Source of the DNA: Gammaproteobacteria bacterium
GTDB lineage: Bacteria; Pseudomonadota; Gammaproteobacteria; UBA6429; Thiohalophilaceae
Direction of reading: 5' to 3'
DNA: 64,000 nucleotides
Assembly: GCA_016194635.1 (NCBI GenBank)
Contig: JACQBC010000030.1
Coordinates: forward strand, 1-64,000
The stretch's first letter is position 1. Every line of letters starts with the position of its first letter. The translations under genes were made by a program, and so were the position numbers. Shown piece by piece: positions 36,562 through 56,830 of this stretch. The notes beneath the pieces were generated by a model. That model did not search any database, was not told where the DNA came from, and saw nothing but the letters and a program-made list of their open reading frames with translations.

Positions 36562-36570
36562 CCGCAGGTT

Positions 36571-37002: not shown

Positions 37003-37011
37003 GCTTGAACC

Positions 37012-37413: not shown

Positions 37414-37435
37414 ACTAAATTGCTATTCCGGTGAT

Positions 37436-37606
37436 GTGGGTGGTTGTCGGGTTGATCGGTAGGGGTGACTCGCTGTAAATACATCCTTGTACGCTCGACG
37501 GCCGCAGTCGCTCACGCCATCCTGCCTTCCGCGACACTTGCACTTCCTTGTGCATCGTCCCTGCGGCCGACGGTCACCCCTACCGATCAACCCGACAACC
37601 ACCCAC
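37436..37606 (+). repeat. Palindromic element C (core with locus-specific arms and insert)
   Basis: Arms at 37436-37469 and 37573-37606 are perfect 34-bp inverted repeats. The core (103 bases) has the linker GTAAATACATCCTTGTA (37475-37491) and a perfect 9-bp inner stem CGGCCGCAG/CTGCGGCCG (37499-37507 with 37561-37569). The inner stem is separated by 53 extra bases that themselves hold a TGCAC/GTGCA hairpin, so this copy is expanded. It lies 22 bases after the hypothetical gene and would end the pepA transcript. Its arms do not match those of the other copies. Confidence 0.93.
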
Positions 37607-37735
37607 CGCAGCAGAGGAGAAATCTGCAATTGATTTGCTGTCCGGATTTATACCTGCTGGCCCCCCGCCTTGGATCACACAATAAACTCCATTCACACAG
37701 CGAATCGCCACGCGAGGTGAACTACACTTAAACCC

Positions 37736-38707: not shown

Positions 38708-41124
38708 AAAACCCGCTACGCAATACCACGATTCGCACCCAGCTTACCCTGGCCATTTTTAGCGCCACTGTGATTGTGCTGCTGGCGGCCGCGATATTTT
38801 CGATTTATTGGAAGGCCAACGAAACCGCCGAGCAGGCCCAACGCCGCGCCCACACCATAGTGGCTATTTTGGCGCAGGATTTTGTCCGCAGCGTGCTGAT
38901 GGACTCGCCCGACACGGTCGTGGACATGACCAACAAGCTTGAGTCGTTTAGTCTGGTCGATCACGCTGTATTCTTTAATCGTGACGGGACACCGATACTC
39001 ATGTATACCCGTGAGGGTGAGCAACCCCTGGAAAAAGTTCCTAACCAGACCGAACCGCTCCACTTGAACAGTAACTCTATCGGTGTGTATTTGCCCATCG
39101 AGTATCAAGCCAAACACTATGGCACCGCCTATTTTGACTTCAAGCGGGATAGTTTCAATCAAGAATACACCGTGTATCTCACCCGCTTGTTGCTGGTCTC
39201 GCCTGTGTTGTTAGTATTTTCCATCGGCGTGGCGTTATTTTTCCAACAATTCTTTACCCGTCCGATCCGTGAATTAGCCGCGGCATTCGACCACCTGGGG
39301 CAGCAGGCGCTCAGCACCTCAAACATCACTTCCAAAGAGGTCGCGCAATTATTCCACGGTTTTAACGCCATGACACAACGCGTCAAGGAGTCCCAACACC
39401 TGCTGGCTGAACAAAAAGAACAACTGCGCATCACCTTGGAGTCGATCGCGGACGGGGTGATTGCCACCGACAAAAATGGCTGTATTACCTATCTTAATCC
39501 CGCGGCTGAACAAATCACCGGTTGGAATGAAAATTCCGCTTTGCAGCGCCCCGCCGAACACGTCTATCGCCTGGTCGATGAAAGCAGCGAACGCCCGCTG
39601 ACCGGCCAAATCGACGAGACCTTGCTCACCGGCTCGGTCCATATCAGTTTGGAATCCACGGCGTTATGGACTAAACAAGCGGCAAAAATACCCGTTCATA
39701 GTTCGATCGCGCCGATCCGCGAGCCCGCTGGACAAATTAACGGGGTCGTCATTATTTTCCAAAATGTGAGCGAGGCGCGCGAGCTTGCCCATCAACTACG
39801 TCACCAAGCCACCCATGATACCTTAACGGAATTGATCAACCGGGCGCATTTCGAGCAGACCTTGAATACGACGTTGCAAGCGATGACCCGGCGTGATCAT
39901 CACGGCCTACTTTATTTAGACTTGGATCAATTTAAAATTGTTAACGACACCTGCGGCCACACCGCCGGCGATGCCTTGCTAAAACAAATCGCCAGCCTGA
40001 TAAAATCTACGGTACGCGGCAATGATATCGTGGCACGCCTGGGAGGCGATGAATTCGCGGTATTCCTGCCCAGTTGCAGCTTAGCGCAAGCTGCCGAGGT
40101 GGCGGAGAAAATCCGTTCTAACATCGGTGAATTTATCTTTATTTGGAACACCCACCAGTTTCGGATCGGTGTCAGCATCGGCGTTGTGGCCATCGATACC
40201 AACAAGCTTAGTTATTCTGACCTGATGAGCGCCGCCGACCTGTCCTGCTACGCCGCTAAAGACAATGGCCGCAACCGTGTCCACCTCTACCACCAGGAAG
40301 ACCAAGACCTGATTCAACGCCACGGTGAAATGCGCTGGGTCGAACGTATTCACACAGCGATTGCCAAGAATCAATTCGTATTATTCGCGCAACAGGTATT
40401 GCCGATTGATTCGGACAATCCCAATGAGCATATTGAAGTACTGGTCCGCTACCAAGACAAAAATGGCAATGTCGTCTTACCCAGCGCCTTTCTTCCCGCC
40501 GCCGAGCGTTATAATTTATCGCCGATCATCGATCGCTGGGTTATTCACTCCTTGCTGTCCAATATCCGTTTAGTGAATTTTTTAAAGCTGCGGCAAAATC
40601 TACGTGTCAACATCAACCTCTCGGGTTTGACCCTGAGTGATGCCGGGCTGGCGGATTTTGTCGCGGCAAGGGTGCAACAAGCCAAGTTACCGCCTAAATC
40701 GATTTGTTTTGAAATCACCGAGACCGCCGCGGTGGCGAATCTCGCCGCCACCGCGCATTTTATGCGCGCCATGAAACTGTTGGGTTGCGAGTTCGCGCTC
40801 GACGATTTTGGTATCGGTGTCTCGTCATTTTCGTATTTAAAAAACCTGCCGGTTGACTACCTGAAAATCGATGGCAGCTTTGTGCGCGATATTGACAAGA
40901 ACCCGATCAACCAAGCGATGGTCAACGCTATCAACCAGATTGGCCACGTCATGAATCTTAAAACCATCGCGGAGTTTGTCGAAACCCAAGCCATCTGCCA
41001 GCACTTACAAACCATTGGTGTCGATTTCGCGCAGGGTTATTTCGTGCACCAGCCCTGCCCGTTGGAACAAATCTTCGCTGTCATCGAACACGCGTCCAAC
41101 CATTGCAAATGTCAAATACTCTAA
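38704..41124 (+). CDS. Membrane GGDEF/EAL protein (cyclic di-GMP turnover)
   Basis: An 806-residue protein. Two membrane helices (about 14-36 and 163-187) flank a periplasmic sensor of the CHASE8 type; then come HAMP (about 188-235), PAS (about 245-370), GGDEF (about 375-530) and EAL (about 545-795) domains. The GGDEF motif (ARLGGDEFAVFL, about 445) is intact with an RxxD inhibitory site (RGND) just before it. In the phosphodiesterase domain the EAL tripeptide reads EVL (EVLVRY, about 576), but FEITETAAV, LDDFGIGVSSFSYLKNLPVD and the IAEFVET motif are kept, so activity is possible. It overlaps the rhodanese gene by 4 bases. Confidence 0.93.
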   Translation: MKNPLRNTTIRTQLTLAIFSATVIVLLAAAIFSIYWKANETAEQAQRRAHTIVAILAQDFVRSVLMDSPDTVVDMTNKLESFSLVDHAVFFNRDGTPILMYTREGEQPLEKVPNQTEPLHLNSNSIGVYLPIEYQAKHYGTAYFDFKRDSFNQEYTVYLTRLLLVSPVLLVFSIGVALFFQQFFTRPIRELAAAFDHLGQQALSTSNITSKEVAQLFHGFNAMTQRVKESQHLLAEQKEQLRITLESIADGVIATDKNGCITYLNPAAEQITGWNENSALQRPAEHVYRLVDESSERPLTGQIDETLLTGSVHISLESTALWTKQAAKIPVHSSIAPIREPAGQINGVVIIFQNVSEARELAHQLRHQATHDTLTELINRAHFEQTLNTTLQAMTRRDHHGLLYLDLDQFKIVNDTCGHTAGDALLKQIASLIKSTVRGNDIVARLGGDEFAVFLPSCSLAQAAEVAEKIRSNIGEFIFIWNTHQFRIGVSIGVVAIDTNKLSYSDLMSAADLSCYAAKDNGRNRVHLYHQEDQDLIQRHGEMRWVERIHTAIAKNQFVLFAQQVLPIDSDNPNEHIEVLVRYQDKNGNVVLPSAFLPAAERYNLSPIIDRWVIHSLLSNIRLVNFLKLRQNLRVNINLSGLTLSDAGLADFVAARVQQAKLPPKSICFEITETAAVANLAATAHFMRAMKLLGCEFALDDFGIGVSSFSYLKNLPVDYLKIDGSFVRDIDKNPINQAMVNAINQIGHVMNLKTIAEFVETQAICQHLQTIGVDFAQGYFVHQPCPLEQIFAVIEHASNHCKCQIL

Positions 41125-41176
41125 ACTAAAGTTGCGCAAGAATGCGCATCACGACGATTCAGAGGAGCTAAACCTC

Positions 41177-41482
41177 TTATAAGCGTCCACTTTCCTCTAA
41201 CAGGGTTAGCCAATAAACGCCCCGGCCCGCCAGGCTCTGGTCTTGTCGTAATGCGCTGAGCACAGCGGGTACGGCGTTATCCTGCAGCACGATATCAACC
41301 CGAATATGCGGGGTGTAACCGACCACACTATCGCGCGCGGATAACACCGGATCGCATTCTTGCCGCGAGCCGTGACCTTGCACCGGCGTAAAGGTAAAAC
41401 CGGATATCGCGGCTAACCCACGCAGCATATCGCCCAAGGATTGCTCAATCCCGGCGTGTACGATCAACGTTAAGAGTTTCAT
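41177..41482 (-). CDS. DUF3240 (PII-like) protein of an RND efflux operon
   Basis: A 101-residue small protein starting KLLTLIVHAGIEQSLGDMLR and carrying GFTFTPVQGHGSRQ, the DUF3240 pattern, related to PII-like folds. This family is found at the end of heavy-metal RND operons (CzcA/CusA) and may sense or regulate. It overlaps the stop of the RND gene by 4 bases. Its exact role is unknown. Confidence 0.87.
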   Translation of the reverse strand: MKLLTLIVHAGIEQSLGDMLRGLAAISGFTFTPVQGHGSRQECDPVLSARDSVVGYTPHIRVDIVLQDNAVPAVLSALRQDQSLAGRGVYWLTLLEESGRL

Positions 41483-44400
41483 GCTCCTATCTCCTTTAAA
41501 CGATCTTCCGCCCGGCTTTCCAACCAGGCATAAAGCGTGGGCAGTAATACCAGCGTCAGCAAAGTGGAAGTAAATAACCCACCGATCACTACAACCGCCA
41601 GCGGACGTTGTAATTCCGAACCCGGTCCGGTTGCTAATAACATTGGTACTAACCCAAGGCTGGCTATCAACGCTGTCATCAATACCGGTCGTAATCGGCG
41701 TGTTGCACCTTCCACCACGGCCTGTTGTAGCGTTAACCCTGATTGACGTAATTGGTTAAAATAAGTCACCATTACCACCCCGTTGAGCACGGCCACGCCG
41801 AATAATGTGATGAAACCGACCGAGGCCGGAACCGATAAATAAAGGCCGGAGAGGTACAAACAGACTACACCACCGATCAAGGCGAACGGTATGTTAAGGA
41901 TGACCAATAACGCCTGCCGCAGCGAACCGAAAGTTGAAAACAACATGAAAAAGATCAGGGCGACCGATACCGGCACTACCAGCGCCAAACGTTGCGCCGC
42001 GCGTTGTTGATTCTCGAATTGTCCGCCATATTTAATGTGATAACCCTCCGGTAAATTTATTTCACGCGCAATCAGCTGTTTGAGCTCAGCGACGAACCCA
42101 ACCACGTCGCGGCCGCTGACATTGCTGCGTAGCGTCAACTGCCGCCGCGTCGCCTCACGTTGGATCAACACTGGGCCATCAAGCTGTTGGATCTGCGCAA
42201 CCTCACCCAAGGGCAGCATCGCACCGCTACCGGTCTTGAGCAACAGATTACGCAGATCGGCCGGTGAATGACGCGCCTGCTCGGGATATCGCAACAATAC
42301 ACCGATACGGCGATTATCGGCGATGATTTGTGTAACCAATTTACCCGCCACCGCAGTCTCAACTATATCGTTAATAGCTTCGTTGTTAAGCCCGTAACGC
42401 GCCAGCGCAGCGCTACGCGGAACGATATTGAGGTAACCCTGACCTGAAAGCCGCGCGCGGAAAACATCGGTCGCGCCTGGAATACGCTTAACGATGGCCT
42501 CCAATTGGCCGGCGATACGTTCAAGCACCGTAAAGTCATCCCCAAACAACTTGACCGCCACGTCGGCACGCACACCGGATAACATCTCCGACACCCGCAT
42601 ATTGATCGGTTGACTAAACCCCGATTCCACACCTTTTGCTTCAAATACCTTGAGTCGGGTGCGTAACCGGTTCTCGAATTCCTTATAGCTGAAACCCCAA
42701 CTATCACGCGGTGTGGCCTGTAAAAAACAATCCGTTTGGTAGAAGCCCATCGGGTCAAGCCGCAGTTCATCGGCACCGTTGCGGCAGATCACACCGGTGA
42801 CTTGTGGCAGCGTCAACATGGCCTGTTGTATCGGTGCATCTAGCTCAAGTGACGCTTCCAAGGATATATCCGAACTCTTTTCCAGGTTGATGATCGTGCT
42901 GCCTTCATCCAGTGAGGGAAGAAACTCTTTACCGATAAAGGGAAATAACGCTATCGCACCGAGCAACGCCAGCAGAGCGCCAGCAATCGCGGCCCGGCGA
43001 TACCGCAATGCCCAATGTATCACTGGTATATAGACGGACTTGATCGTCCGGGTGAGCAAGTCTTTGCCGTGTTGAACGTCGCGCATCAGGATACTGGCGA
43101 GCACCGGAATCACGGTAAGCGACAGTAGCAGTGAAGACGCCAAAGCGAAAGCAATCGTCATGGCCAATGGTGTGAACATACGACCTTCCAGCCCACTGAG
43201 GGAAAATAGCGGCAAAAACACCACGATAATAATCATCACCCCCGCTACCACCGGTGTCGCAACTTCACAGGTCGCGCGATAGATAAGGTGCAATCGGCCG
43301 ACAGTGGTGTTGTTTCCGTTCAGATGGCTATGAATATTTTCCACTACTACTACCGCGGCATCAACCAAAATGCCAATCGCAATTGCCAGCCCCCCCAGCG
43401 ACATCAAATTGGCAGTAAGGCCGGTGAGTTTCATTAAAATAAACGTCGACAACACCGACAGAGGTAGTATCAAGGCCACCGTGACAGCGGCCCGCAGGTT
43501 ACCAAGCAGTATAATCAACACCAGTATGACCAGGATTACCGCTTCACCCAGGGCCTTTTCGACCGTCCATACCGCTGCGTTGATAAGATCGGTTCGATCA
43601 TAAAACGTCTCGATACTAACCCCTTTGGGAAGGGTCGGCGCCAATTGCGCCAATTCACGTTTGACCGCTTCGACCACCCTACGGGTATTGGCGCCGATCC
43701 GCGCCAGCACCAACCCTGTGACGATTTCTCCGCTAGCATTGGCCGTCACCCCGCCGTAGCGGATCAGGGCGCCCTCACGTACCAGCGCAACATCACCGAC
43801 ACGGAGCGGAACACCGTTGCGGGTGACGATGTTAATCCGACGAATATCATCCATGGTCTTGAGTTGTCCCTCGGTACGCACCAGCCAAATCTGGTCGCCG
43901 TGATTGATACGATCACCCCCGGCGTTACGATTATTGCTGGCGACGATATTCTCCAGCTCGTGTATGCTCAATCCCTGGCGCAGCATTTTTTTTGGATCGG
44001 GGATAATCTCAAACGCCTGCACCAAGCCCCCGAGTGAATTCACATCGGCCACGCCCTCAAGCGCGCGCAAACGTGGCCGCAGCACCCAATCCTGCAATGT
44101 ACGCAGTTGGGTATTGCTGTAACCCTCGCCCTTAATCTGGTACATGAACACATCCCCCATCGGCGTGGCGATCGGGGCCAACAGAACCTCGACATTACCG
44201 GGCAGTTCATCTTTGACTTGATTAAGACGTTCGGCGACCTGCTGCCGCGCCCAATAAATATCGGTGCCCTCTTCAAAATCGATAATGATATTGCTCAGCG
44301 AATATTTAGTGGTGGAACGCAATATCTGTTGATGAGGTATCCCCTGCATTTCCATTTCGAGCGGAAAAGCAACCCGCGATTCCACCTCGGCCGGGGCCAA

Positions 44401-44565
44401 GCCCGGTGCATTGACAATCACTTGCACTTGCGGCGGTGACAGTTCAGGAAACGCGTCGATCGGCAATATAGTGAAAGCCCATACCCCGCCGAGCATCAAT
44501 GCCGCGGCCGCGAGCAACAACATCAGCCGTTGAGTGAGCGAAAAACGAATTAAGGCATGAATCAC
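41479..44565 (-). CDS. Heavy-metal efflux RND pump (CzcA/CusA family)
   Basis: A 1028-residue inner-membrane pump with 12 helices and two large periplasmic loops. N-terminal landmarks are QRLMLLLAAAALMLGGVWAF and IDAFPELSPPQVQVIVNAPG; helix 4 has LAIAIGILVDAAVVVVENIH with the conserved proton-relay Asp and Glu. The helix 4 pattern (IxVDAAVVxxEN) is nearer the CusA/HME3-4 groups than the CzcA HME1 group (DFGxxxDGAV), but the metal (copper, silver, zinc, cobalt) cannot be settled. It overlaps its neighbours by 4 bases on both sides. The adaptor (CzcB/CusB) gene, expected between it and the outer-membrane gene, is absent. Confidence 0.93.
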   Translation of the reverse strand: MIHALIRFSLTQRLMLLLAAAALMLGGVWAFTILPIDAFPELSPPQVQVIVNAPGLAPAEVESRVAFPLEMEMQGIPHQQILRSTTKYSLSNIIIDFEEGTDIYWARQQVAERLNQVKDELPGNVEVLLAPIATPMGDVFMYQIKGEGYSNTQLRTLQDWVLRPRLRALEGVADVNSLGGLVQAFEIIPDPKKMLRQGLSIHELENIVASNNRNAGGDRINHGDQIWLVRTEGQLKTMDDIRRINIVTRNGVPLRVGDVALVREGALIRYGGVTANASGEIVTGLVLARIGANTRRVVEAVKRELAQLAPTLPKGVSIETFYDRTDLINAAVWTVEKALGEAVILVILVLIILLGNLRAAVTVALILPLSVLSTFILMKLTGLTANLMSLGGLAIAIGILVDAAVVVVENIHSHLNGNNTTVGRLHLIYRATCEVATPVVAGVMIIIVVFLPLFSLSGLEGRMFTPLAMTIAFALASSLLLSLTVIPVLASILMRDVQHGKDLLTRTIKSVYIPVIHWALRYRRAAIAGALLALLGAIALFPFIGKEFLPSLDEGSTIINLEKSSDISLEASLELDAPIQQAMLTLPQVTGVICRNGADELRLDPMGFYQTDCFLQATPRDSWGFSYKEFENRLRTRLKVFEAKGVESGFSQPINMRVSEMLSGVRADVAVKLFGDDFTVLERIAGQLEAIVKRIPGATDVFRARLSGQGYLNIVPRSAALARYGLNNEAINDIVETAVAGKLVTQIIADNRRIGVLLRYPEQARHSPADLRNLLLKTGSGAMLPLGEVAQIQQLDGPVLIQREATRRQLTLRSNVSGRDVVGFVAELKQLIAREINLPEGYHIKYGGQFENQQRAAQRLALVVPVSVALIFFMLFSTFGSLRQALLVILNIPFALIGGVVCLYLSGLYLSVPASVGFITLFGVAVLNGVVMVTYFNQLRQSGLTLQQAVVEGATRRLRPVLMTALIASLGLVPMLLATGPGSELQRPLAVVVIGGLFTSTLLTLVLLPTLYAWLESRAEDRLKEIGA

Positions 44566-45851
44566 GGCCGCACCTCCGTTACCACGGAAATACCCGCCGC
44601 CAGCCGCAGGTTAGCCGCGGCAATAGCCGTTTCACTGAGCAATTCCAAATGCCGCTGCGCGGAATCGAAGTAATTATTATTGGCGTCAAGCAAGGCAAGC
44701 ACGCCCAATTCACCACTGCTGAAACCACGCTGTGTCAAGCCAAGAAAACGTTGGCTGGGTTCTAGTATTTTGCTGGCGTAATGCGTGCTCTGATTCTGCA
44801 AACGTTTATAGCGGAGATAGCTCTCGCGCAGCTGTTGTTCTAATTCACGGCGTTTCACCGTCAGTTCGATTTCAGAAAGTAACACCTTGGCGGAAGCGCG
44901 ATCCACCTCGGCGCGATTCTGATTCCACAGCGGAATCTGAAACGCCACGCTAATGCCGTAATTGTCGCGCGGCCGCGCCCCGAAATAATCGCGCTCCCGA
45001 AATACCGTCAGCGCCGGATCATTCCAACGGCTGGCAGCGGCCACGGCTATCCCCGCCCGCGCGGAATCCAGCGCCAGTTGTTTCTCACGCAGCGCCGGGT
45101 GTTGATCGAGCCCGGCGATGAGTTCACTTAGTACCGGTTGCCATTCCGCCGGGGCGATCGGGACGGTGACAGGGTCAACTTTTTCGCTCAGCAACAAAAA
45201 TCGACGAAAACCTTCGCCCGCCTCACGCCATTCACCCTCGGTCATAAGCATGGACTGCTGCGCACTCTCGCGCAGGATATCCAGCCGCGCGCGATCAATC
45301 GGGGCAAGGTAACGCAAGATTTTATCTTTACGCGATCCGTTTTGATCGTAGTGTTGCGCGGTTTCAAGACGCCGCAGCGCAAGCTGGTATTTGGCTTGCG
45401 TGAGTTGTAATTGGTGAAATATTCTCGCGACCTGATTTTCCAACTGCAGGCTCAGATAAATTCTCGCGCAGTGTGCGGCCGATAAATTCGCCCGGGCTTG
45501 GGTACGTTGCCGTTCAAGACGTGACCATGGTAGCGTTTGCGTAATGGCGATTTGGGTCAGGTCCACGCCGCCACTGCCGTCTTCCAAACCTAAACGTTGA
45601 TCAGCGCGTAATTCCAGAGTCGGGTTGGGCCACGCGCCTTCACGGTTAAGCTCGGCTTGACGTATCGCCACGTCGGCATCACCGGCGCGTAACTCCGCCG
45701 CATTTACAAGTCGCTGTGCCGTTGCGCTCGACAACGACCATGTTTCCACCGGTGGCGTGGATAATACCGGTAGGCTATAAAAAAAACCCATCACAATACC
45801 AACAACGACACGCTTGGCGCGCTGTTGCTTCACTACGCTTATTCGCTGCAT
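44562..45851 (-). CDS. Outer-membrane efflux protein (CzcC/TolC family)
   Basis: A 429-residue TolC-like channel with an N-terminal signal peptide (about 10-33) and two structural repeats rich in long helices, for example LRAGDADVAIRQAELNREGA and PNPTLELRADQRLG, and ALREKQLALDSARAGIAVAA with NDPALTVFRERDYFG in the second. The start ATG 45851 has a strong GGGGGAG site 8 bases upstream; a longer frame to 45905 lacks one. It is the first gene of the efflux operon and overlaps the RND gene by 4 bases. Confidence 0.9.
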   Translation of the reverse strand: MQRISVVKQQRAKRVVVGIVMGFFYSLPVLSTPPVETWSLSSATAQRLVNAAELRAGDADVAIRQAELNREGAWPNPTLELRADQRLGLEDGSGGVDLTQIAITQTLPWSRLERQRTQARANLSAAHCARIYLSLQLENQVARIFHQLQLTQAKYQLALRRLETAQHYDQNGSRKDKILRYLAPIDRARLDILRESAQQSMLMTEGEWREAGEGFRRFLLLSEKVDPVTVPIAPAEWQPVLSELIAGLDQHPALREKQLALDSARAGIAVAAASRWNDPALTVFRERDYFGARPRDNYGISVAFQIPLWNQNRAEVDRASAKVLLSEIELTVKRRELEQQLRESYLRYKRLQNQSTHYASKILEPSQRFLGLTQRGFSSGELGVLALLDANNNYFDSAQRHLELLSETAIAAANLRLAAGISVVTEVRP

Positions 45852-45956
45852 GGACTGCACTCCCCCGCGGTAACGGGCAATTTGATACGGATTCCTACCG
45901 CGCAAACCGGTATCCCTAAGGGATCAGCCTGTGCGGCAACAGATACCTATATGAAA

Positions 45957-46343
45957 TTAGCGCGGTGGAGCGCGCAGGGGAGGTGTGGAATTAAAATGTA
46001 GTTGCGAGGGAAAGACATAACGTATAGCAACCCGCCGGACTCGGAGCACGGTAGGTACAAGCAGGCATATTGCTACAAGTAGTACGATGGCGGGCAACAC
46101 GATAGTGGTGTAAAAATTCAACAAGCCTTCCGGCGCCGGTTGCTGCACCGTGACATCCTGCCGGTGCGATTCGTCCGTAAAATGTTGGGGGCTGTATTGG
46201 TCGACCACTGAATACGCGGTATTGTGTAGCGGGTGATGGATATGTATGTGCGAAGGGAACCAGGTCAACGCTAAAAAGCTCACCACCAGCAACCATCCTA
46301 TGGCCTGATTAGTGATACCCCTGCCTCGCCAGCCTGCTGTCAT
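45957..46343 (-). CDS. Small His-rich membrane protein next to the efflux operon
   Basis: A 128-residue protein with two membrane helices (about 13-29 and 80-100). The loop between them is on the periplasmic side if the N-terminus is cytoplasmic, and it contains FPSHIHIHHPLHNT plus HFTDESHR, a cluster of His that could bind metal. The C-terminus ends TPPLRAPPR, a tail often seen in small proteins encoded before heavy-metal efflux operons. It lies 105 bases upstream of the outer-membrane channel gene. Function is inferred only from the His cluster and position. Confidence 0.7.
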   Translation of the reverse strand: MTAGWRGRGITNQAIGWLLVVSFLALTWFPSHIHIHHPLHNTAYSVVDQYSPQHFTDESHRQDVTVQQPAPEGLLNFYTTIVLPAIVLLVAICLLVPTVLRVRRVAIRYVFPSQLHFNSTPPLRAPPR

Positions 46344-46412
46344 AGGATATGACGTCCCTAAACTTTGATAAACATAACGCCAGCACTATATACCGGGATT
46401 ACACCCTAAACA

Positions 46413-46440
46413 ATAGCCCCTCACCAAGAGAAGAGGCTAT
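46413..46440 (-). terminator. Weak rho-independent terminator after the DUF4139 gene
   Basis: On the minus strand ATAGCCTC (46440-46433) can pair with GGGGCTAT (46420-46413) including one G-T pair, around a 12-base loop, followed by TGTTTAG. It lies 24 bases after the stop of the DUF4139 gene and before the His-rich gene. The U-tract is poor, so termination may be partial. Confidence 0.4.
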
Positions 46441-46463
46441 CTCTAGTAAAGCTGCTCTACAAT

Positions 46464-47918
46464 TTAATAACGGCACTGCACCCGGTATTTTAAGATGGCA
46501 TTACCATTGGCGGGCACCGCGATCTTCCACAGCGCCGTGTGCGCCGCGGCTTTTTCATGTTTATAGGTTTCATTCATGATCCGCCAGTCACCCGGAATAG
46601 GTTCTTGTAGGTTTACCGTCACGGCCTCGGCCTTGGCATTTTTAATCTTGATCTCATAGGCGCTTTCATAGATGTACACACGGCTGGTACCGCTGTCGGT
46701 ACGCTTAAAGTCGGTTTGTTTTTTATCAGCGGTGACGTCGAAGGCATTGCCCAGTTTTAATTTTAGGGTTTCATTCTTGGGGGTATGATCGATCTGATCC
46801 TCACCGATGAATTGCGCGTTGCCGCTTTTATCACGCTTATACACCCGCACCACGCCCTTGGGTAAGGGCAAACCTAAATGCGACGGCTGTGTATTCTCCA
46901 GAGTGACAAACACCTCGAACTTCAGTTTTTGTCCCAGCTCGCCGTAACTGGCGCTGTAGTAATAGTCATTGCCGTGCAATACCAATTCCTTGCTGACCGG
47001 TACTTGCGTGGCCGAGAGCAAGGCCACTTGTTTGGTTTGATTATCCGCGAGGCTGGTGGGACGGTTGAGGGTATACAAATGATATTCGAATAACGACTCT
47101 TCCGACATTTCCCTTGTGCGTTTGGACGCTTCCTGCACCACCCCCATTGACGCGGCTTTAGCCAAAACCATATCTTCCCGGACCCGGTTCACGTCCCCCG
47201 CCACCAGTTGCAATGTCGCATTGGGATAAGCACTGCCGCTGGTATTGGTCAAGGTCACCCAACCGTTCAAATCCAAGGTTTTATCATCGGGACTCAACTC
47301 GGCGACATAATCCGCCTTCCACGCCAGGCCGCCGGTTAAATAGGACAGTTCGAGTTGTTGCGCACTGGCGACATCATTCTCCAGGGTCACGACCAGGGTA
47401 GGATGGTCGCGTAAATTCGCCGGGACGTGATCGAATACTGGTCGGCCGGGGACACCGGTTTCGATCCGATCACCGATCTTAAGCACAGTGCCATTGGCCA
47501 CGCTCAATACCTCGGCCGATTCCAACGTTTCAACCCCGGTCGCGGGGTTGGTGCGGATCACCCGGATCATCTGCCCCACGGACTTTTCGAGCAGTTTCTG
47601 CGGGGTTAACAGGTCAAAATCGAAGTTTTGCTCTAACAGGTGTAAGGCGGCGGGATGACTGATGGAACGTAATTGCGCGGTCTCGGGGCGCAATTTGCCG
47701 CTGACATCGCGTAACGCCAGTGTGCGCAGGCCCGTGTCGAGCGTTATGCGACGTATATCCTTCACCAGGGCCAGGTCTTCGTTGTAAATTGTGATGGCCA
47801 CGGAGCTTTGATCGGCCAGGGTACTGCGTTGTTCATCAGCCACTACGTAACGGGTTATTCCAGCGGCGAATAAACCGGCAACGACTAGGGTGGCGGCGCT
47901 GTGATTTTTGATTAACAT
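46464..47918 (-). CDS. DUF4139 domain protein, exported
   Basis: A 484-residue protein with an N-terminal signal peptide (about 8-28, ending VVADE). The DUF4139 region, mostly beta-strands, fills the rest: VAITIYNEDLALVKDIRRIT near the start, GGLAWKADYVAELSPDDKTL with LNGWVTLTNTSG in the middle, and GDWRIMNETYKHEKAAAHTA near the end. The family is exported and of unknown function. It is divergent from the DUF2298 genes across a 113-base gap. Confidence 0.88.
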   Translation of the reverse strand: MLIKNHSAATLVVAGLFAAGITRYVVADEQRSTLADQSSVAITIYNEDLALVKDIRRITLDTGLRTLALRDVSGKLRPETAQLRSISHPAALHLLEQNFDFDLLTPQKLLEKSVGQMIRVIRTNPATGVETLESAEVLSVANGTVLKIGDRIETGVPGRPVFDHVPANLRDHPTLVVTLENDVASAQQLELSYLTGGLAWKADYVAELSPDDKTLDLNGWVTLTNTSGSAYPNATLQLVAGDVNRVREDMVLAKAASMGVVQEASKRTREMSEESLFEYHLYTLNRPTSLADNQTKQVALLSATQVPVSKELVLHGNDYYYSASYGELGQKLKFEVFVTLENTQPSHLGLPLPKGVVRVYKRDKSGNAQFIGEDQIDHTPKNETLKLKLGNAFDVTADKKQTDFKRTDSGTSRVYIYESAYEIKIKNAKAEAVTVNLQEPIPGDWRIMNETYKHEKAAAHTALWKIAVPANGNAILKYRVQCRY

Positions 47919-48031
47919 AGGTATTCCCTCAGATATTTTATGAATAAAAGTTATAACATGCTGCTAACAATACGAGGTTAAACCGTACCATGCCAGTCGC
48001 ATTGACTACATTTTACAAATAAGATACATCC

Positions 48032-50017
48032 ATGAGTTTCCTCTATTTGGGCGCCACGCTGATGTTGCTAGTGGTTAACCTGGCGGCATTATCCCTTGGG
48101 TTGCGTTGCTGGTTACCCCATTACCTGCTCGCCAAGGCGGTGGGCCTGGTGGGTCTGTGCCTGCTGGGGTTTTTTATCGAGCATTTTATCGGCCTGGGTA
48201 ACATCACCTGGCTGTGGCCGATCAGTACGCTGATTTCTCTCACCGTGCTTTATCAACAACGTGAGGTTTTTATCACCCGCCTATGGCGGCAAGAATTAGT
48301 GTTTGTACTGGCGCTATTGGCGGCCCTGGCCTGGAAATTTTCCTTTCCGGATATCGATAGCCATTCCGAACAACTCACCGACCTGGCCTTTATCAGCAGT
48401 TACCTCTCCGGTGAGACCTTGCCGCCCACCGATTATTGGTTGCCCAGCCAACGCTTAAATATGTATTACGCCTTTCAGCATTACGCGGCGGCACTGCTGG
48501 GTCGGGGTTTGGGTTTATCTCCGGGCTATACCATGAACCTGGCAATTGCATTGATGCTAGCGCTATTAGCCAGCTTGGTCTGGTTTGTCGCCAGCCAGTA
48601 TTGTCATAGGCGCAGCTCAAGAGTGTTGTTGCTGATCGCGGTGATGGCCGGTGGCACCGGTATCGCACCGCTGACACATTTTATCCTGCCCCAATCCGAT
48701 CAAGATAAAGCCTTTAACGCCATGAGCAACCTCTGGGCTAATACCCGTTTTGCCGGCATGTACGATGAACACACGCAGGACACGCCCCTGGGACGGATTT
48801 TATTTTCCCCCCCGAGCAGCGCGCCAACCGAAGCCCGGGACCTGCCGCTGGAAACCATCGGTTATCTCGTCCTGTTGGGGGATTTCCATCCTCCCTTGGG
48901 CGGTTTCTTATTATTGTTGATTGCCTTAAGTTGCATCGTGGTGCTCGACACCGCAGCGGCAGGGAGTTCATCGCGCGTATTACAAATGATCCTGACCGCC
49001 ACCGTACCGGTAACGCTGATTACCAATACCTGGGTATTCCCCCTGCAAGCGGTATTAGTGTGCGCATGGGTGGTACAACGCTATTTAGCGAAAGCGCCGC
49101 TGGAGTGGCGCGCGTTATTGTCCGGCGCGGTCGTCAGCAGCGTGTTGATCTATCCATTTTTAACGCCGTTCGCAACCCACGCCTTGCACACCCCCTTGCG
49201 CTGGGTAACCAGCGTTGATCACACACCGTTGGATCGTTTCATCGCGATCCACTGGCCGGAATTGGTGCTGTTGCTGCTGGCGGCAATCACCGCCTACCGA
49301 CAACGTCGTTACCGTGGGTGGGTGATCGTGTTCGGCGGATTATTAATACTGACAGAGCTCATTTATGTCGATGACCCCTTGGGCGGAAAATACAACCGGT
49401 TTAATTCCACGCTCAAATGGTGGTCGTGGTTGTATCCCGCCATCGTGGTACTATTCGGCGCGCAACTGCTCGCCGCGCAACGTTGGCAACGCAATCTAAC
49501 GCTGCTAGTTCTCGTATTGATCGCCAGTTTTAGTTTCGATATGGCCCGTTATTGGCTTTATGCGAATAAATCCGCGCTGGGGAAACTTGACGGTCACGCC
49601 TGGTTAAGCGCCGACCCGGTCAGCGGCGCAATGTTGCAGTGGCTGCGCGTCATGCCCAAGGGCATTGTACTGGAAGGACTGGACGGGGGCGCCTATACAC
49701 CCCGCTCGGCGCTGGCGTTATTCGCCGCTAAACCTTCGCTAACCGGATGGCCGGACCACGAAGCGCAATGGCGCGGCAACCCCTCCGAGATCCTGCAGAA
49801 TGCAAATACCGCGCAGGCCTTCTACCGCGGTGAGTTGACCTCGGCGGTTACATGGTTAAGCGGCCAACAGGTTCGCTACATCATTTGGAATAAACGTGAT
49901 CAAGACAGCCATCCCACCGCGTGGCGTCGGATCCACGCACAAATCCAATCTGAGTATTATTGGAAGCCGTTTTGGCAGCAAGGCGATGTCGAACTTGGCA
50001 TTTGGTTTAGAAAATAA
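48032..50017 (+). CDS. DUF2298 (YYY) polytopic membrane protein 1
   Basis: A 661-residue protein with about 14 hydrophobic segments. DUF2298 hallmarks are seen: HSEQLTDLAFISSYLSGETL, PPTDYWLPSQRLNMYYAFQH followed by YAAAL, and near the end GGKYNRFNSTLKWWSWLYPA. These resemble the YYY membrane proteins described mainly from Chloroflexi and archaea, which are thought to be glycosyltransferase-like. A soluble-like C-terminal part (about 520-661) follows. It lies 17 bases before a close paralogue. Role in surface polysaccharide or protein glycosylation is a guess from the adjacent GT39 gene. Confidence 0.83.
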   Translation: MSFLYLGATLMLLVVNLAALSLGLRCWLPHYLLAKAVGLVGLCLLGFFIEHFIGLGNITWLWPISTLISLTVLYQQREVFITRLWRQELVFVLALLAALAWKFSFPDIDSHSEQLTDLAFISSYLSGETLPPTDYWLPSQRLNMYYAFQHYAAALLGRGLGLSPGYTMNLAIALMLALLASLVWFVASQYCHRRSSRVLLLIAVMAGGTGIAPLTHFILPQSDQDKAFNAMSNLWANTRFAGMYDEHTQDTPLGRILFSPPSSAPTEARDLPLETIGYLVLLGDFHPPLGGFLLLLIALSCIVVLDTAAAGSSSRVLQMILTATVPVTLITNTWVFPLQAVLVCAWVVQRYLAKAPLEWRALLSGAVVSSVLIYPFLTPFATHALHTPLRWVTSVDHTPLDRFIAIHWPELVLLLLAAITAYRQRRYRGWVIVFGGLLILTELIYVDDPLGGKYNRFNSTLKWWSWLYPAIVVLFGAQLLAAQRWQRNLTLLVLVLIASFSFDMARYWLYANKSALGKLDGHAWLSADPVSGAMLQWLRVMPKGIVLEGLDGGAYTPRSALALFAAKPSLTGWPDHEAQWRGNPSEILQNANTAQAFYRGELTSAVTWLSGQQVRYIIWNKRDQDSHPTAWRRIHAQIQSEYYWKPFWQQGDVELGIWFRK

Positions 50018-50034
50018 CCCAGGATATTACCATT

Positions 50035-52050
50035 ATGTATTTTATTTACTTAACACTCACGCTCGCATTACTGATGCTAAATTTGGCGGGCCTGACGTTA
50101 TTAACCCGCCGTTTCGTCCCCAGCTTGGCCTTGGCGCGCGCGGTGGGGATCATCGGTTTTTGTTTGCTGATGTTTTTTATAGAACACTTTATCGGCTTGG
50201 GACGTCTTAACTGGGTATGGCCGATCACCACGCTGCTGAGCGCTTACCTACTGCTGCAGCAACGTGCGGAACTGCGCGTCGGTGGATTCTGGAAAACCGA
50301 ATTAATATTTTACGGCTTATTCATTTACATATTTGCCTGGAGATTTTGTTTTCCAAGTATTTATCCGTCCTCCGAACACGTCACCGATTTATATTTCATT
50401 GCTAATTATTTCGACGGCACAACCTTACCGCCCCTGGATCATTGGTATCCGCCGCATCGGTTTAACATCTATTATGCCTTCCAACATTATGCCGCGGCCT
50501 TGATGGGCCGGATCTTTGCGCTTGACCCAGGCACAACGTATAACATCGCGTTTGCGCTGATCTTAGCCCTACCCGCCGCGCTCGCCTGGGAATTCACCGG
50601 GCATTACCTCAAAGCAATTTGGATCCGCGCGGTCTTACTGGTCGCACTGGTGAGTGGTGGTACCGGCATGACACCGTTATTGTTTTTCGTGCAGCCGCTC
50701 GCCCCCAATCTTAATACCCATCAACTGGCGGGGGCCTTGAGCGAACGTATCGTCACCGGCCAACGTTTTATCGGCTTGATGGATCAACGCACCACCGCCC
50801 CTATCGGCTTGGCATTATTTCCGCGCTTTAACCCCGCCGATAAACCCAACCCCAGCTTTGAACCCCTCGAGCTACCCGAAGAAACCTACGGCTACCAAAT
50901 TTTTCTCGGCGATTATCATCCCCCCTCCGGAGGATTCTTTTTGTTACTGCTGGCCCTGGCCCTGATCGCCGCGATTGAAAACCAGCGCATTGGCCGCATC
51001 GGTCAACCGCTGCTGGCCGCCACCCTGCCGGTATTAATGGTCACCAATACCTGGGTATTACCTTTGCAGGGTATCTTGATCGGTGCGTGGTTGGCGTACC
51101 GTTACTGGCAGAAAAATCCACCGGATTGGATTGGACTGGTGGCCGGGGGTAGCGTGGCCTTGGTATTGGTATATCCGTTCTTAAGCGGCTTTGTCACTAA
51201 CGTTCAAACCACCTCCATACGTTTCGTCACAATGATCAATCATACCCCGCTGAGCCGTTTTATCGGCATGCACTGGCCGTTGTTACTCTTGGTCTTGTTC
51301 GGTTTATTAAACCCGCAGCAGCGCCGTTTCAGCATAAGCCTGGCCATCGTCTTTGCGGCGCTGCTGCTGATCTCCGAGTTCGTGTATGTCGATGACCCCA
51401 GCGGTGGTAAATACGAACGCACCAATACTACGATGAAATGGTGGGGTTGGATCTGGACCGGGGGTCTAATCAGTCTAGGCACGTTGGGTTCGAGCAGTCG
51501 CGTGCGCTGGATCCGCTGGGGCACTATCGCGATAGTATTATTGATCAGCACGGCGGTACTCGATCTGAGCCGCTATTTCGTTTTAATGGACAAAAACGAC
51601 ATGGGTTACCTGGCCGGTCATCATTGGCTCACCCAAGACCCCACCCAAGCCGCGCTGGTGAATTTTTTACAGACGGAACCTAACGGTATCGTATTGGAAA
51701 ATCAATACGGGGATTCCTATGACAATACAACGCTGTATGCCCTGTTCAGCGGCAAACCCGCGCTGATGGGTTGGCCCGCGCATTTGATTACTTGGCGTCG
51801 CAATGTCATCGATGTCTATCCGATGAAGGAACGTATCCAAACCTTTTACGCGGGCAACCTCGCCGACAGTCTGGCATGGCTGCAAGCCAACCACGTGCGC
51901 TATATCGTCTGGAGCCCCGACGATAACAAAGATCCGCAAGCCTTTGTGCGCGTACAACAACAGATCAGCAACGGTTATCACTGGCAGGTATTTTACGACA
52001 CCGGCACCTATCGCGTCGGCGTGTGGATCGCCAATCAACCGACCTCGTAA
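50035..52050 (+). CDS. DUF2298 (YYY) polytopic membrane protein 2
   Basis: A 671-residue paralogue of the preceding protein with the same order of motifs: SEHVTDLYFIANYFDGTTLP, PLDHWYPPHRFNIYYAFQHY followed by AAALMGR, the shared YPFLSGFVTNVQTTSIRFVT/HTPLSRFIGMHW segment (HTPLDRFIAIHW in copy 1), and VYVDDPSGGKYERTNTTMKW. The similarity over the whole length shows a tandem duplication. Copy 2 is 17 bases downstream and converges on the GT39 gene, whose stop is 55 bases away. Confidence 0.83.
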   Translation: MYFIYLTLTLALLMLNLAGLTLLTRRFVPSLALARAVGIIGFCLLMFFIEHFIGLGRLNWVWPITTLLSAYLLLQQRAELRVGGFWKTELIFYGLFIYIFAWRFCFPSIYPSSEHVTDLYFIANYFDGTTLPPLDHWYPPHRFNIYYAFQHYAAALMGRIFALDPGTTYNIAFALILALPAALAWEFTGHYLKAIWIRAVLLVALVSGGTGMTPLLFFVQPLAPNLNTHQLAGALSERIVTGQRFIGLMDQRTTAPIGLALFPRFNPADKPNPSFEPLELPEETYGYQIFLGDYHPPSGGFFLLLLALALIAAIENQRIGRIGQPLLAATLPVLMVTNTWVLPLQGILIGAWLAYRYWQKNPPDWIGLVAGGSVALVLVYPFLSGFVTNVQTTSIRFVTMINHTPLSRFIGMHWPLLLLVLFGLLNPQQRRFSISLAIVFAALLLISEFVYVDDPSGGKYERTNTTMKWWGWIWTGGLISLGTLGSSSRVRWIRWGTIAIVLLISTAVLDLSRYFVLMDKNDMGYLAGHHWLTQDPTQAALVNFLQTEPNGIVLENQYGDSYDNTTLYALFSGKPALMGWPAHLITWRRNVIDVYPMKERIQTFYAGNLADSLAWLQANHVRYIVWSPDDNKDPQAFVRVQQQISNGYHWQVFYDTGTYRVGVWIANQPTS

Positions 52051-52104
52051 ATCAAGTCCACATTGTTTGCACAATGTTGGTAATTTTTTAAACCGGCCAA
52101 GGGA

Positions 52105-53640
52105 TTACTTGGCCAACGTATCAACAACCGCTGGCAAGGGCCCATAACGCTGGTCCATGTAACACTCCTTATCCGGCAACCAGCTAGGAATACGATAATA
52201 GTTGCGCCGCACTTCGGCCAATACCGTGTCACGGTACAAGGGATAATTAAATCCCGTCCCCAATCCCAAATGGAACTGAGTGCCCTCGAAGGGGATAATA
52301 ATGTGCTCAAAACTGCGAAAATATTTGGCATAATTCTCAATATCGGCGTCTTTGTCTAAGATGGCCATGGGCTTACCATCGAATTGACGAAAATCGGTGA
52401 GCATGTCGTCTTGCCGGCCGTGATACGACCCCGGACCGATCACCAACACCGGTTTTTTATCCGCAAACGCCAGTACCGCCGCGGCGGAATAACTCGGATT
52501 CGCCAGTGGAAAGTTATGCCGGTAAGGCTCGACCACGTTTAGCAAGGCCTTGGTGTGCATCGACGATACCAAGTCTTGATAAATACCGGGATGGCCGCGA
52601 AAACTAGCGGGTATGGTTGACAAGATAATAATAAACACCACTAAGAAGACCAAACTGAAGCCCCACATAAAATGGAAACAGACACGCAACTGACCGTAAC
52701 TCAAGAACACAGCCAGGGCGACAAATAAAAACGGATAGAAACTCAAGATCCAATGTCCACCCACCGATTTACCCATGGCAATCACCATGAATAATAAAAT
52801 CGGCACCAAGAACAGCACCAGAAACAACCCGAGGCCGTCTTGTTTAATGGTTTTAATCAGCTGACTTGGGCTGCGCCACAGGTAATACAACACCGGCGGG
52901 GTCATGATGACCAGCAACAGCAATAAATATTTGCCGAAGGTGATCAATGAAAAGGCAAAATCGGCGGTACGATTTTGTAAATTAAATAAATAATTATCCC
53001 AACAATGTTGATAATTCCATAACAGATTTAGACCAATAAACGGCACCACGCCCAGGATTAGCCATAATAGTCCGCGATAGGGCCGCCAACCACGGCGCAC
53101 GAACAACACGATATATAACAGGTATGCGATCCCGAGCAAGCCGGCGAAAAACTTGGAGATAAACGCCAAGCCCAGGCAAATACCGGTTAACCAATACCAA
53201 CCCCCTTGGTCACGGCGCTGGGCACGGTAGAAACACCACGCTGATACAAACGACCAGAAGATCAAAGGGGTGTCGGTGGTGATCAAGGGCACGAACAGGT
53301 TGACCGGCGCCATCCAATATAAACCCGCCGCCAATACCGCTAACATTTCGCCGCGCTTGCGCACGTAATAATAAATCGCCAGACCGATTAAGGTCGTGGT
53401 AATGATCGTCGGCAGGCGTAACCAGCCGATCGCATCGCTAACGTGCAACAAACCGGTGAGCCACCAGCCCACCATCGGCGGATGGTCGTAATAACCAAAA
53501 TCGGGATAACGGCCCCATAACACGAAGTAGGCCTCGTCGCCGGTAACCGGCACCCAAAATGCGATAACCAGTTTAATCACCAAGCTGATGAGGATCAGTC
53601 CCCAAAAAGCCTGGCGTTCGTTCAATCGAGCTAACAGCAT
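52105..53640 (-). CDS. GT39-family (ArnT/PMT-like) glycosyltransferase
   Basis: A 511-residue polytopic inner-membrane protein with 11-13 helices. The first periplasmic loop has the acidic catalytic motif GDEAYFVLWGRYPDFGYYDH followed by PPMVGWW, and a TDTPL piece follows. This is the layout of polyprenyl-phosphate-sugar dependent glycosyltransferases (family 39, PF13231). It could transfer a sugar to lipid A, a protein or another lipid; the acceptor is not evident. It converges with the DUF2298 pair and is divergent from valS. Confidence 0.88.
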   Translation of the reverse strand: MLLARLNERQAFWGLILISLVIKLVIAFWVPVTGDEAYFVLWGRYPDFGYYDHPPMVGWWLTGLLHVSDAIGWLRLPTIITTTLIGLAIYYYVRKRGEMLAVLAAGLYWMAPVNLFVPLITTDTPLIFWSFVSAWCFYRAQRRDQGGWYWLTGICLGLAFISKFFAGLLGIAYLLYIVLFVRRGWRPYRGLLWLILGVVPFIGLNLLWNYQHCWDNYLFNLQNRTADFAFSLITFGKYLLLLLVIMTPPVLYYLWRSPSQLIKTIKQDGLGLFLVLFLVPILLFMVIAMGKSVGGHWILSFYPFLFVALAVFLSYGQLRVCFHFMWGFSLVFLVVFIIILSTIPASFRGHPGIYQDLVSSMHTKALLNVVEPYRHNFPLANPSYSAAAVLAFADKKPVLVIGPGSYHGRQDDMLTDFRQFDGKPMAILDKDADIENYAKYFRSFEHIIIPFEGTQFHLGLGTGFNYPLYRDTVLAEVRRNYYRIPSWLPDKECYMDQRYGPLPAVVDTLAK

Positions 53641-53775: not shown

Positions 53776-56628
53776 GTGGATAAAACCTATCAGCCGCACG
53801 CTATCGAAACGCATTGGTATGCACGCTGGGAACAATGCGGTTACTTTGCCCCGCAACCCCAGGGCGCTGCCTATTGCATCATGATCCCGCCGCCCAACGT
53901 CACCGGTTCGCTACACATGGGTCACGCGTTCCAAGACACGATCATGGACGCCTTGACGCGCTATCACCGGATGAAAGGCGATAACACCCTATGGCAGGCC
54001 GGCACCGATCACGCCGGTATCGCCACCCAAATGGTGGTCGAACGGCAGTTGAATGCCCAGGGTCAGACTCGGCATGATCTGGGCCGTGACGGCTTCATCG
54101 CCAAGGTGTGGGAATGGAAGGCGCACTCCGGCGGGACGATTACCCGCCAATTACGTCGCATCGGCGCCTCGCTGGATTGGAGCCGCGAACGTTTTACCAT
54201 GGACGAGGGTTTGTCCGCTGCCGTACAAGAAGTGTTTGTCCGCCTCCACGAAGAAGACCTTATCTATCGCGACAAACAACTGGTGAATTGGGATCCCGTG
54301 TTACAGACCGCGGTTTCGGATCTTGAAGTCATCTCCCAGGAAGAAAGCGGGCATTTATGGCACTTGCGTTATCCGCTAACCGATGGGAGCGGACATTTGA
54401 TCGTCGCCACCACCCGACCGGAAACCCTGCTCGGTGACAGCGCAGTCGCAGTTCATCCTAATGATGAGCGGTACAAAAAATTTATTGGCAAACAGATTCG
54501 ACTGCCTATTACAAATCGCGAGATTCCTATCATCGCGGACGACTACGTGGACAAAGAGTTCGGTACCGGCTGCGTCAAGATCACCCCGGCACATGACTTC
54601 AACGACTACAAACTTGGAAAGCGCCATAAGCTTCCTTTGTTTTGTATCTTTACTAAGGATGCGAAGATCGTTAACGATGAAGATTGGCCGATGGTTAATC
54701 AAAACCTTAGATATGCGCGTATATCAAAGCGGCGCGATATTATCGACGTGGCATCCGAGATTGGCATACCAAGAGACTATTGGGGTCTAGATCGTTTCGA
54801 CGCACGCAAGAAAATCGTTGCCTATTTTGAGAAAGAGGGTCTCCTAGAGAAAATCCAACCGCATAAATTAATGGTGCCGCGCGGTGATCGCAGCCAGGCG
54901 GTGATCGAGCCCTATCTCACCGATCAATGGTATGTAAAGATTGCTCCTCTGGCCGAACCCGCGATCAAGGCGGTTGAAACCGGTGCGATTAAATTCGTCC
55001 CGGACAATTGGAAAAACACTTATTTTGAATGGATGCGCAACATCCAGGATTGGTGCGTCAGCCGCCAGATCTGGTGGGGCCACCGCATCCCGGCCTGGTA
55101 CGACGACCGCGGTACTATCTATGTCGCGCGCAGCGAAACCGAGGTCCGCAAGAAGTACCGGCTCAGCGACACGCTGCAACTCACACAAGACGATGACGTG
55201 CTCGATACTTGGTTCTCGTCCGCGTTATGGCCGTTTTCCACCTTGGGCTGGCCGCAACAAACACCGGAATTAAAAACCTTTTACCCCACCTCGGTGTTGG
55301 TCACCGGTTTTGACATCATCTTTTTTTGGGTGGCGCGGATGATCATGTTTGGGATGAAATTCACCGGCGAGGTACCGTTTCGCGAAGTGTATATCCACGG
55401 CCTGGTGCGCGATTCGCACGGGCAAAAAATGTCGAAGTCCAAAGGAAATGTATTGGATCCGATCGATTTGATCGACGGCGTGGATCTGGAAACCCTGGTA
55501 AACAAACGCATCACCGGCCTGCTGCGGCCCAAGGACGCCGCGGATATTGAAAAGATCACCCGCATCGAATATCCCAACGGCATTCCCGCCTACGGTACGG
55601 ACGCGTTGCGGTTTACTTTCGCGGCGCTGGCATCCACCGGGCGCGATATTAATTTTGATCTGAATCGGATCGAGGGCTACCGCAATTTCTGCAATAAGTT
55701 ATGGAACGCCGCGCGTTATGTGTTGCTCAATACCGAAGGCAAAGCCACCGGAACCGGTTACTCCAGCATTGAACTCTCCATCGCCGATCGCTGGATCGTT
55801 TCACGCTTACAGCAAACCATCCAACAAGTGGACGACGCCATTCAACAGTATCGTTTTGATCTGATGGCCAATGCGCTTTATGAATTCACTTGGAATGAAT
55901 ATTGCGACTGGTATCTGGAATTATCCAAACCGGTATTGGTGAGTGAAACCAGCAGTGCGGCGGCCAAACGCGGCACCCGTTACACCTTGATCCAAGTGTT
56001 GGAAACTCTGTTGCGTTTGCTCCATCCCATTATGCCCTACATTACCGAGGACATCTGGCAACGGGTCGCGCCCTTGGCCGCTATCCAGGGGGCAACGATC
56101 ATGTTGCAGCCCTTCCCCAGTGCCGATCGCGAACTGATCGCCACCGACGCCGATGCCGACATGGAATGGGTAAAACAATTTATTCTCGGGGTGCGGCAGA
56201 TCCGCAGCGGTATGGATATTAAACCCAGCAAACCCTTGCCGGTGTTACTGCAAAATGGCAGCGACGCGGATCGGCGGCGTTTGACCAACAATCAACACTA
56301 CATCGAGTTCTTGGCGCGTACCGAATCGATTCGCTGGTTAGGCGGCAATGACACGGCACCGGAAGCCGCCACCGCCTTGCTGGGAAATTTGAAATTGCTG
56401 ATCCCGATGGCTGGGTTAATCGACAAACACGCGGAGTCGCAGCGTTTGCAAAAAGAAATCGATAAGAAACACCAAGAAAAAGAACGTCTGGCCACTAAAC
56501 TGGCCAATCCCAATTTTGTGGACAAAGCCCCGGCCGCCGTGGTGGCCACCGAGCGAACACGCTTAGCCGCGATGGAGGCCGCTATGCAGCAATTAACCCA
56601 GCAATTGGAAAAAATCTCGCGGCTGTGA
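53776..56628 (+). CDS. valS: ValS, valyl-tRNA synthetase
   Basis: A 950-residue class I synthetase that charges tRNA-Val. HIGH-type motif [14 protein letters not shown] near residue 40, the editing domain (about 190-410), KMSKSKGN near 551, the anticodon-binding domain and a C-terminal coiled-coil ([20 protein letters not shown] near 885). The start is GTG 53776 by alignment to the usual [12 protein letters not shown]-terminus. The editing region (about 54430-54900) has more AGA, ATA and other rarer codons than the rest and a peptide about 20 residues longer than usual, suggesting recombination. Normally close to holC; here it is 16 kb away. Confidence 0.97.
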
Positions 56629-56696
56629 ACCGACACGGGGATGTTTGGAATCTCAACAAGGTCTTCTGATTTAAAAAGTCACTATCATTGACCGTC

Positions 56697-56810
56697 GGTG
56701 GTTGCCGGATCCATTGCGATGGTTGACCGTCGGCGGCAGGGATGCCGCCGTCGAGCGTACAGGGACGTCTTTACAGCGAGTCAACCATCGCAATGGATCC
56801 GGCAACCACC
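56697..56810 (-). repeat. Palindromic element D (core with locus-specific arms)
   Basis: Arms at 56697-56727 and 56780-56810 are perfect 31-bp inverted repeats. Read on the minus strand, the 52-base core has the linker GTAAAGACGTCCCTGTA (56774-56758) and an inner 8-bp hairpin CGGCGGCA/TGCCGCCG (56731-56738 with 56743-56750). It separates the convergent valS and DUF2970 genes, a terminator position. TGACCGTCGG, which marks the arm-core junction at 56724-56733, occurs again just outside the left arm at 56689-56698, possibly the scar of an earlier or shifted copy. Confidence 0.93.
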
Positions 56811-56830
56811 AACAGTACCACCCAAAGCGG

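Follow-up and report, generated by a model that had tools for sequence, protein, structure and literature searches.

Tandem DUF2298 proteins of a gammaproteobacterium as candidate paired GT-C glycosyltransferases of a GtrA/GtrB-type module

Two adjacent genes, A and B, encode DUF2298 (PF10060) proteins in a 64,000-nucleotide stretch of DNA from a gammaproteobacterium of the Thiohalophilaceae (assembly GCA_016194635.1, contig JACQBC010000030.1, positions 1 to 64,000; the window). We propose, with a probability of about 0.72, that A and B are paired GT-C glycosyltransferases on the periplasmic side of the inner membrane, working in a GtrA/GtrB-type glycosylation module with twin GT-Cs. The proposal is built on the predicted fold, the pairing of the two genes, the gene neighbourhoods of their relatives, a sporadic distribution and a derived insertion site, all of which were computed. 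The uncharacterised DUF2298 family would thereby gain a concrete and testable job as a GT-C transferase in GtrA/GtrB-type glycosylation.

Family assignment and predicted fold

The two genes are placed as follows.
48032..50017, + strand: gene A, DUF2298 protein of the 'upstream' clade with a predicted GT-C fold, 661 aa (from PF10060, AlphaFold2 model, ArnT match and clade placement)
50035..52050, + strand: gene B, DUF2298 protein of the 'downstream' clade with a predicted GT-C fold, 671 aa (from PF10060, AlphaFold2 model and ArnT match)

The gap between the stop of A and the start of B is 17 nt, and both genes converge with a gene at 52105-53640 on the minus strand. A scored 101.7 bits (E 6.4e-29) and B 95.4 bits (E 5.3e-27) against PF10060, for which the Pfam gathering cut-off is 27.8 bits. 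The facing gene passed the cut-offs of PMT_2 (72.8 bits against 26.1) and PMT (34.4 bits against 22.7); its GT39 likeness is taken from these Pfam profiles. All three are long, conserved and stop-free frames, so they are not chance open reading frames. A and B are 43% identical in an alignment that runs end to end. The two full-length DUF2298 paralogues facing a GT39-like gene, which an earlier note on this DNA had described, are therefore real. Promoter and terminator scans gave counts not above those of shuffled sequences, and thus no operon claim is built on them.

The family is rare in this part of the bacterial tree, as the earlier note had supposed. Their own genome (3.7 Mb, with a listed completeness of 99.07% and contamination of 0.04%) has no DUF2298 gene besides A and B. 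With B as the query, this genome was the only one matched of 58; of the 57 without a match, 36 belong to the same family. PF10060 was over its cut-off in one of 40 genomes of the order, in two of 369 of the class (the own genome and G061; G335 matched below the cut-off) and in one of 398 of the phylum, where three others matched below it. A wide vertical distribution in related Gammaproteobacteria was thus not found. Against the Chlor_Arch_YYY model (TIGR03662), known from Chloroflexi and archaea, A scored 134 and B 120.1 bits, well under the NCBIfam cut-off of 300.25 bits. The likeness is that of the same broad DUF2298 family. Some TIGR03662 members carry two copies plus tetratricopeptide repeats; in contrast, A and B are single-domain proteins of a distinct proteobacterial subfamily.

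No relative of solved structure was found by sequence for B or for the GT39-like protein at E values up to 1. Therefore structure comparison was applied to predicted models, as the earlier note had advised. The AlphaFold2 model of B (30-row alignment) had a mean predicted local distance difference test score of 92.0 and a predicted template modelling score of 0.92; those of A (20-row alignment) were 88.6 and 0.91. The best Foldseek matches of B were the C-mannosyltransferase CeDPY19, AglB and ALG12, with E values from 6.8e-6 to 8.7e-4 and low TM-scores. In VIA-align, the top match of B was ArnT (5F15; Z 17.3, root-mean-square deviation 6.0, 423 aligned residues). ArnT was also the top match of A (Z 14.4, deviation 5.5, 419 aligned), tied with two other GT-C entries. 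The 47 rows of B at Z of at least 8.6 were all GT-C enzymes or subunits of the glycosylphosphatidylinositol (GPI) transamidase, and the next row was unrelated (Z 4.2). Rows 1-49 of A were GT-C enzymes, GPI-transamidase subunits or an oligosaccharyltransferase domain, and the next row had Z 6.3. We take the GPI-transamidase subunits to be GT-C-like. According to the models, A and B have the GT-C glycosyltransferase fold, and Pfam presumably also places DUF2298 in a GT-C clan.

ArnT uses a polyprenyl-phosphate sugar donor. Its identity to the DUF2298 proteins is about 10%, and lipid A is not indicated as the acceptor. The ArnT match begins near residue 82 and leaves about 80 additional N-terminal residues of DUF2298, three helices, uncovered. 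Ten polar or charged residues are invariant in both clades (E114, D135, R244, E283, H295, E448, D454, R462, N464 and K468 in B numbering), and neither copy is therefore marked as dead. E114 (E113 in A) never varies, and D118 hardly does. Both stand just past the first core helix (85-105); by alignment offset, they would lie at the place expected for the first-loop acid of ArnT. Near this loop there are also clade-wide differences, with D109 in A against mostly Tyr or Phe in B, and M168 in A against Tyr in B. These differences suggest different jobs for the two proteins.

Two clades kept as a pair

The relatives of the pair are 17 loci from a contig scan with B as the query, which reaches close relatives and is silent on Chloroflexi and archaea. 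By record names all are Pseudomonadota: Chitinibacteraceae, Methylococcales, Oxalobacteraceae, Teredinibacter, Polycyclovorans and unplaced metagenome-assembled genomes (MAGs). One A and one B were present in 15 of the 17, in tandem in 12 and on different contigs in three (G784, G789 and G791). A tree of 30 rows placed the 12 upstream copies on one side of a branch with support 100/100. Whole-genome searches of the 17 genomes gave second copies in most of the apparent single-copy cases, and all four complete ones (G784, G789, G791 and G796) joined the A clade in an extended tree, which still split from the B-type rows at 100/100. By these trees, A and B represent two old clades, and the pair is thus kept even when its genes are unlinked.

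Four loci were rejected as single-copy cases (L010, L015, L017 and L022), because the searches either located another copy, of A type, elsewhere in the genome or showed that the contig was broken. A 648-aa frame of G798 (L096) was rejected as a second copy; its match was weak (140.6 bits), its branch very long, and Pfam gave no hit. This very divergent DUF2298-like frame, present besides a B-type copy and left out of the counts, lies at 5097-7199 between queuosine-synthesis genes (queA-like and tgt) and may represent another undescribed GT-C-like family.

Structures of Pmt1-Pmt2 and EmbA-EmbB were among the fold matches. These are GT-C paralogues acting as dimers, whereas an A-B complex is only suggested, by co-occurrence. 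Tentatively, A and B could be the halves of an obligate heteromeric periplasmic GT-C, a bacterial analogue of Pmt1-Pmt2, which would be fed by GtrA and GtrB, would have passed as one unit between Beta- and Gammaproteobacteria and would modify an undescribed surface glycan or protein.

GtrB and GtrA neighbours and the proposed function

In 13 of the 17 loci, the gene immediately downstream of the final DUF2298 gene encodes a GtrB-like GT2 (a structural study of GtrB reportedly exists), and in G796 (L095) such a gene adjoins the pair. Thus a GtrB-like polyprenyl-phosphate sugar synthase is found within 5 kb in 14 of the 17 genomes. A GtrA-type flippase is nearby in 11 (ten loci and L095); that of L021 is weak to our custom profile and scores 68.6 bits to Pfam. 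Both genes of L009 and L011 were found by six-frame profile searches. The GT2 protein of L012 matches the solved GtrB structure 5EKP at 3.7e-109 and ArnC at 1.7e-45. In G061, genes for DUF2298, GtrA and GtrB stand in a row. By contrast, the 3.7 Mb of the window's own genome contain three GtrB-like genes of full length, so the proximity of GtrB to DUF2298 is not chance. One contig of this genome, C18 (L073), carries a GtrB and a GtrA gene together; away from the DUF2298 pair, the genome has two GtrA genes in all. The C18 GtrB is 65% identical to the GtrB of L019 and 63% to that of L012.

As described in PMC11127046 and PMC8035078, a GT2 enzyme charges undecaprenyl phosphate, a GtrA-type flippase follows and a GT-C completes the transfer. 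For the DUF2298 pair we infer a lipid-phosphate sugar donor, a periplasmic reaction and, in the window's own bacterium, supply in trans. On the cytoplasmic side, a GtrB-type enzyme would load a sugar, probably a hexose, onto undecaprenyl phosphate, and a GtrA-type protein would flip the product across the membrane. A and B would then transfer the sugar to an acceptor in the periplasm, a glycan or a protein; each may attach a residue of its own, or the two may act as a heteromer. In the own genome, where the genes are apart, the GtrB and GtrA of C18 would feed A and B in trans. Such supply is plausible because one GtrA-type flippase of Lactococcus serves three GT-A/GT-C pairs, according to PMC8035078.

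Several observations weigh against this proposal. GtrB and GtrA are absent beside the pair in the window itself. Among the relatives, both are missing nearby at loci L010/L092 and L013 and, by genome, in G784 and G787; the contig of G788 stops inside B. The B gene of G787 is interrupted close to its 3' end by a stop or frameshift, which may be genuine or an assembly error. The C18 GtrB-GtrA pair adjoins a PMT_2-like protein of its own (24.4 bits, cut-off 26.1) and therefore need not serve A and B. A GtrB orthologue is present also in relatives without DUF2298. Two of the 17 genomes (G795 and G798) have a B-type copy only, and since B was the bait of the scan, A-only genomes would be missed. 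The A protein of L018 has Asn for Asp at position 118. The B model also matches oligosaccharyltransferases, whose donors are pyrophosphate-linked, so the donor is not fixed by the fold alone.

Two alternatives draw on these points. If B alone were catalytic and A a non-catalytic partner or regulator, the change at position 118 in L018, a further change of H151 to Pro in the A protein of L020, and the existence of B-only genomes would fit, as no A-only genome was found with B as the bait. However, A shares the invariant polar and charged residues of B and has a full GT-C model, and we regard this alternative as rather unlikely. The second is that A and B are GT-Cs resembling oligosaccharyltransferases or ligases/polymerases and use pyrophosphate-linked oligosaccharides rather than undecaprenyl-phosphate monosaccharides. 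The fold matches of B do include the oligosaccharyltransferase STT3 (Z up to 15.5), AglB (13.9) and PglB (12.1). The repeated neighbours, however, are GtrB and GtrA, which PMC11127046 and PMC8035078 present as makers and flippers of monophosphate-linked sugars; this makes the second alternative quite improbable.

The preferred reading, paired GT-Cs in a GtrA/GtrB-type module, resembles O-antigen glucosylation by GtrA/GtrB/Gtr* in Shigella and Salmonella and teichoic-acid glycosylation by CsbB/GtcA/YfhO. In most relatives, these three kinds of genes stand side by side. In contrast to these systems, the module retains two paired GT-C paralogues from another GT-C family, DUF2298, and the window itself has neither GtrA nor GtrB next to them. 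The GtrA/GtrB/GT-C scheme is already known, and assigning the family to it is less surprising than the enforced pairing. What goes beyond these modules is that two paralogous GT-Cs are kept together across genomes, even when unlinked. Cultured Chitinibacteraceae have a compact version, so the function is directly testable. As far as titles and the beginnings of abstracts show, with subscription papers mostly outside the coverage, the literature gives no function for DUF2298; nothing was found there that pairs the YYY name with a glycosyltransferase, or a GT-C domain of unknown function with GtrA and AlphaFold. PMC8756737 lists DUF2298 as a gene.

Other genes were noticed at the same loci. A protein with an LPG_synthase_TM domain (PF03706) follows GtrB in L015, L017 and L018 (about 13.0-14.2 kb), where GtrA is lacking; it is perhaps a non-homologous replacement flippase. 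In Andreprevotia (L016, 13370-15370), GtrB is followed by a 666-aa, weakly Dpy19-like protein (PF10034, 5.5e-7), with a clustered homologue in the same place in L020; this would be a further GT-C beside the module. A DIE2/ALG10-family gene (PF04922, 123.8 bits), unexpected in a bacterium, lies directly upstream of DUF2298 in Teredinibacter (L021, 8639-9988). A flagellin gene adjoins the DUF2298-GtrA-GtrB set of L024 (13273-14409), either a possible clue to the acceptor or chance. On contig C36 of the own genome (L074, 29000-46000), genes for UbiA, a flavin adenine dinucleotide-binding protein, a short-chain dehydrogenase-like protein, GtrA and an O-antigen ligase-family protein are clustered. 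The flavin-binding protein is presumably DprE1-like, and the cluster may give this bacterium a route to polyprenyl-phosphate arabinose.

The GT39-like gene, the derived block and horizontal transfer

Three further features define the site of A and B.
37415..52104, no strand: derived block (from blastn against L058, gene orders and Pfam)
52105..53640, - strand: PMT_2 (GT39-like) enzyme, 511 aa, a resident neighbour of valS judged to be outside the DUF2298 system (from Pfam and synteny)
53776..56628, + strand: valS, syntenic anchor outside the system (from the open reading frame list and flank comparison)

The block holds genes for rhodanese, GGDEF-EAL, DUF3240, CzcA, OEP (TolC-like) and DUF4139 proteins besides A and B, and is flanked by a holC-side gene (37012-37413) and the GT39-like gene. 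The flanks of valS were compared in 15 relatives, 13 of them of the same family. GT39 stood beside valS in ten (L058, L060-L066, L068 and L069; in L063 this placement comes from an antisense frame spanning valS), and DUF2298 was at the valS flank in none of the 15. In L058, which is of the same genus, blastn matches to window positions 35446-37414 and 52142-53624 have 31 bases between them, against 14.7 kb in the window. The order pepA-holC-gene-GT39-valS was also found in L060, L061 (with one gene between), L062, L066 and L068. The flanks adjoin in L058 and this order recurs in further relatives, so the block with A and B is derived. TolC- and CzcA-like genes also stand beside GT39 in L064 (G017), and the block may therefore have grown in steps.

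This synteny decides on the role that the earlier note had given to the GT39-like enzyme. The idea that A, B and this enzyme form one surface glycosylation system is favoured by their adjacency and convergence, and PMC8756737 has neighbouring PMT_2-like and DUF2298 genes in one Chloroflexi region. Nevertheless, GT39 is an old neighbour of valS in relatives without DUF2298, and in the same-genus genome it directly abuts the holC-side gene. PMT_2 was not a repeated neighbour among the scanned genes, a part of all neighbours, around the related loci; GtrB and GtrA accompany DUF2298 there. The GT39-like gene was thus rejected as a partner of the pair, and a three-protein system is highly improbable. 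Of the glycosylation system first suggested, the DUF2298 pair stands as a probable GT-C module with GtrB and GtrA, and the GT39 component is not supported.

The suggestion that the pair was acquired by transfer held up better. The derived segment is missing in the same-genus relative, and the DUF2298 tree conflicts with the ValS tree. In the latter, Chitinilyticum groups with other Betaproteobacteria at 100/99 and Methylococcaceae stand elsewhere. In the DUF2298 tree, the Chitinilyticum copies group with Methylococcales (A at 100/100, B at 98/97), apart from Andreprevotia and Jeongeupia. From this conflict, the A-B pair moves horizontally as a unit between the two groups, a transfer among proteobacteria as far as sampled. 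The copies closest to those of the window are in L014 (61% identity for B, 56-57% for A), from a MAG whose ValS adjoins that of the window genus (92/90). Therefore the gain may have come before the split of L014 and the window genus, followed by a loss in G001. The GC content (0.547 for A, 0.524 for B) and that of third codon positions (0.648 and 0.635) fall within the values of the measured core genes, so base composition gives no sign of recent foreign origin. Plasmid-borne relatives of B were not found at E values up to 1e-3.

Within the block, window positions 41177-45905 hold the CzcA-OEP-DUF3240 efflux genes, and no CzcB-like gene was seen between them. A palindromic dispersed repeat with 51-nt arms, 86% complementary, lies at the left edge of the block (37415-37625) and also just past valS (56694-56814). 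It has 57 matches in the own genome and resembles repetitive extragenic palindromic sequences or miniature inverted-repeat transposable elements.

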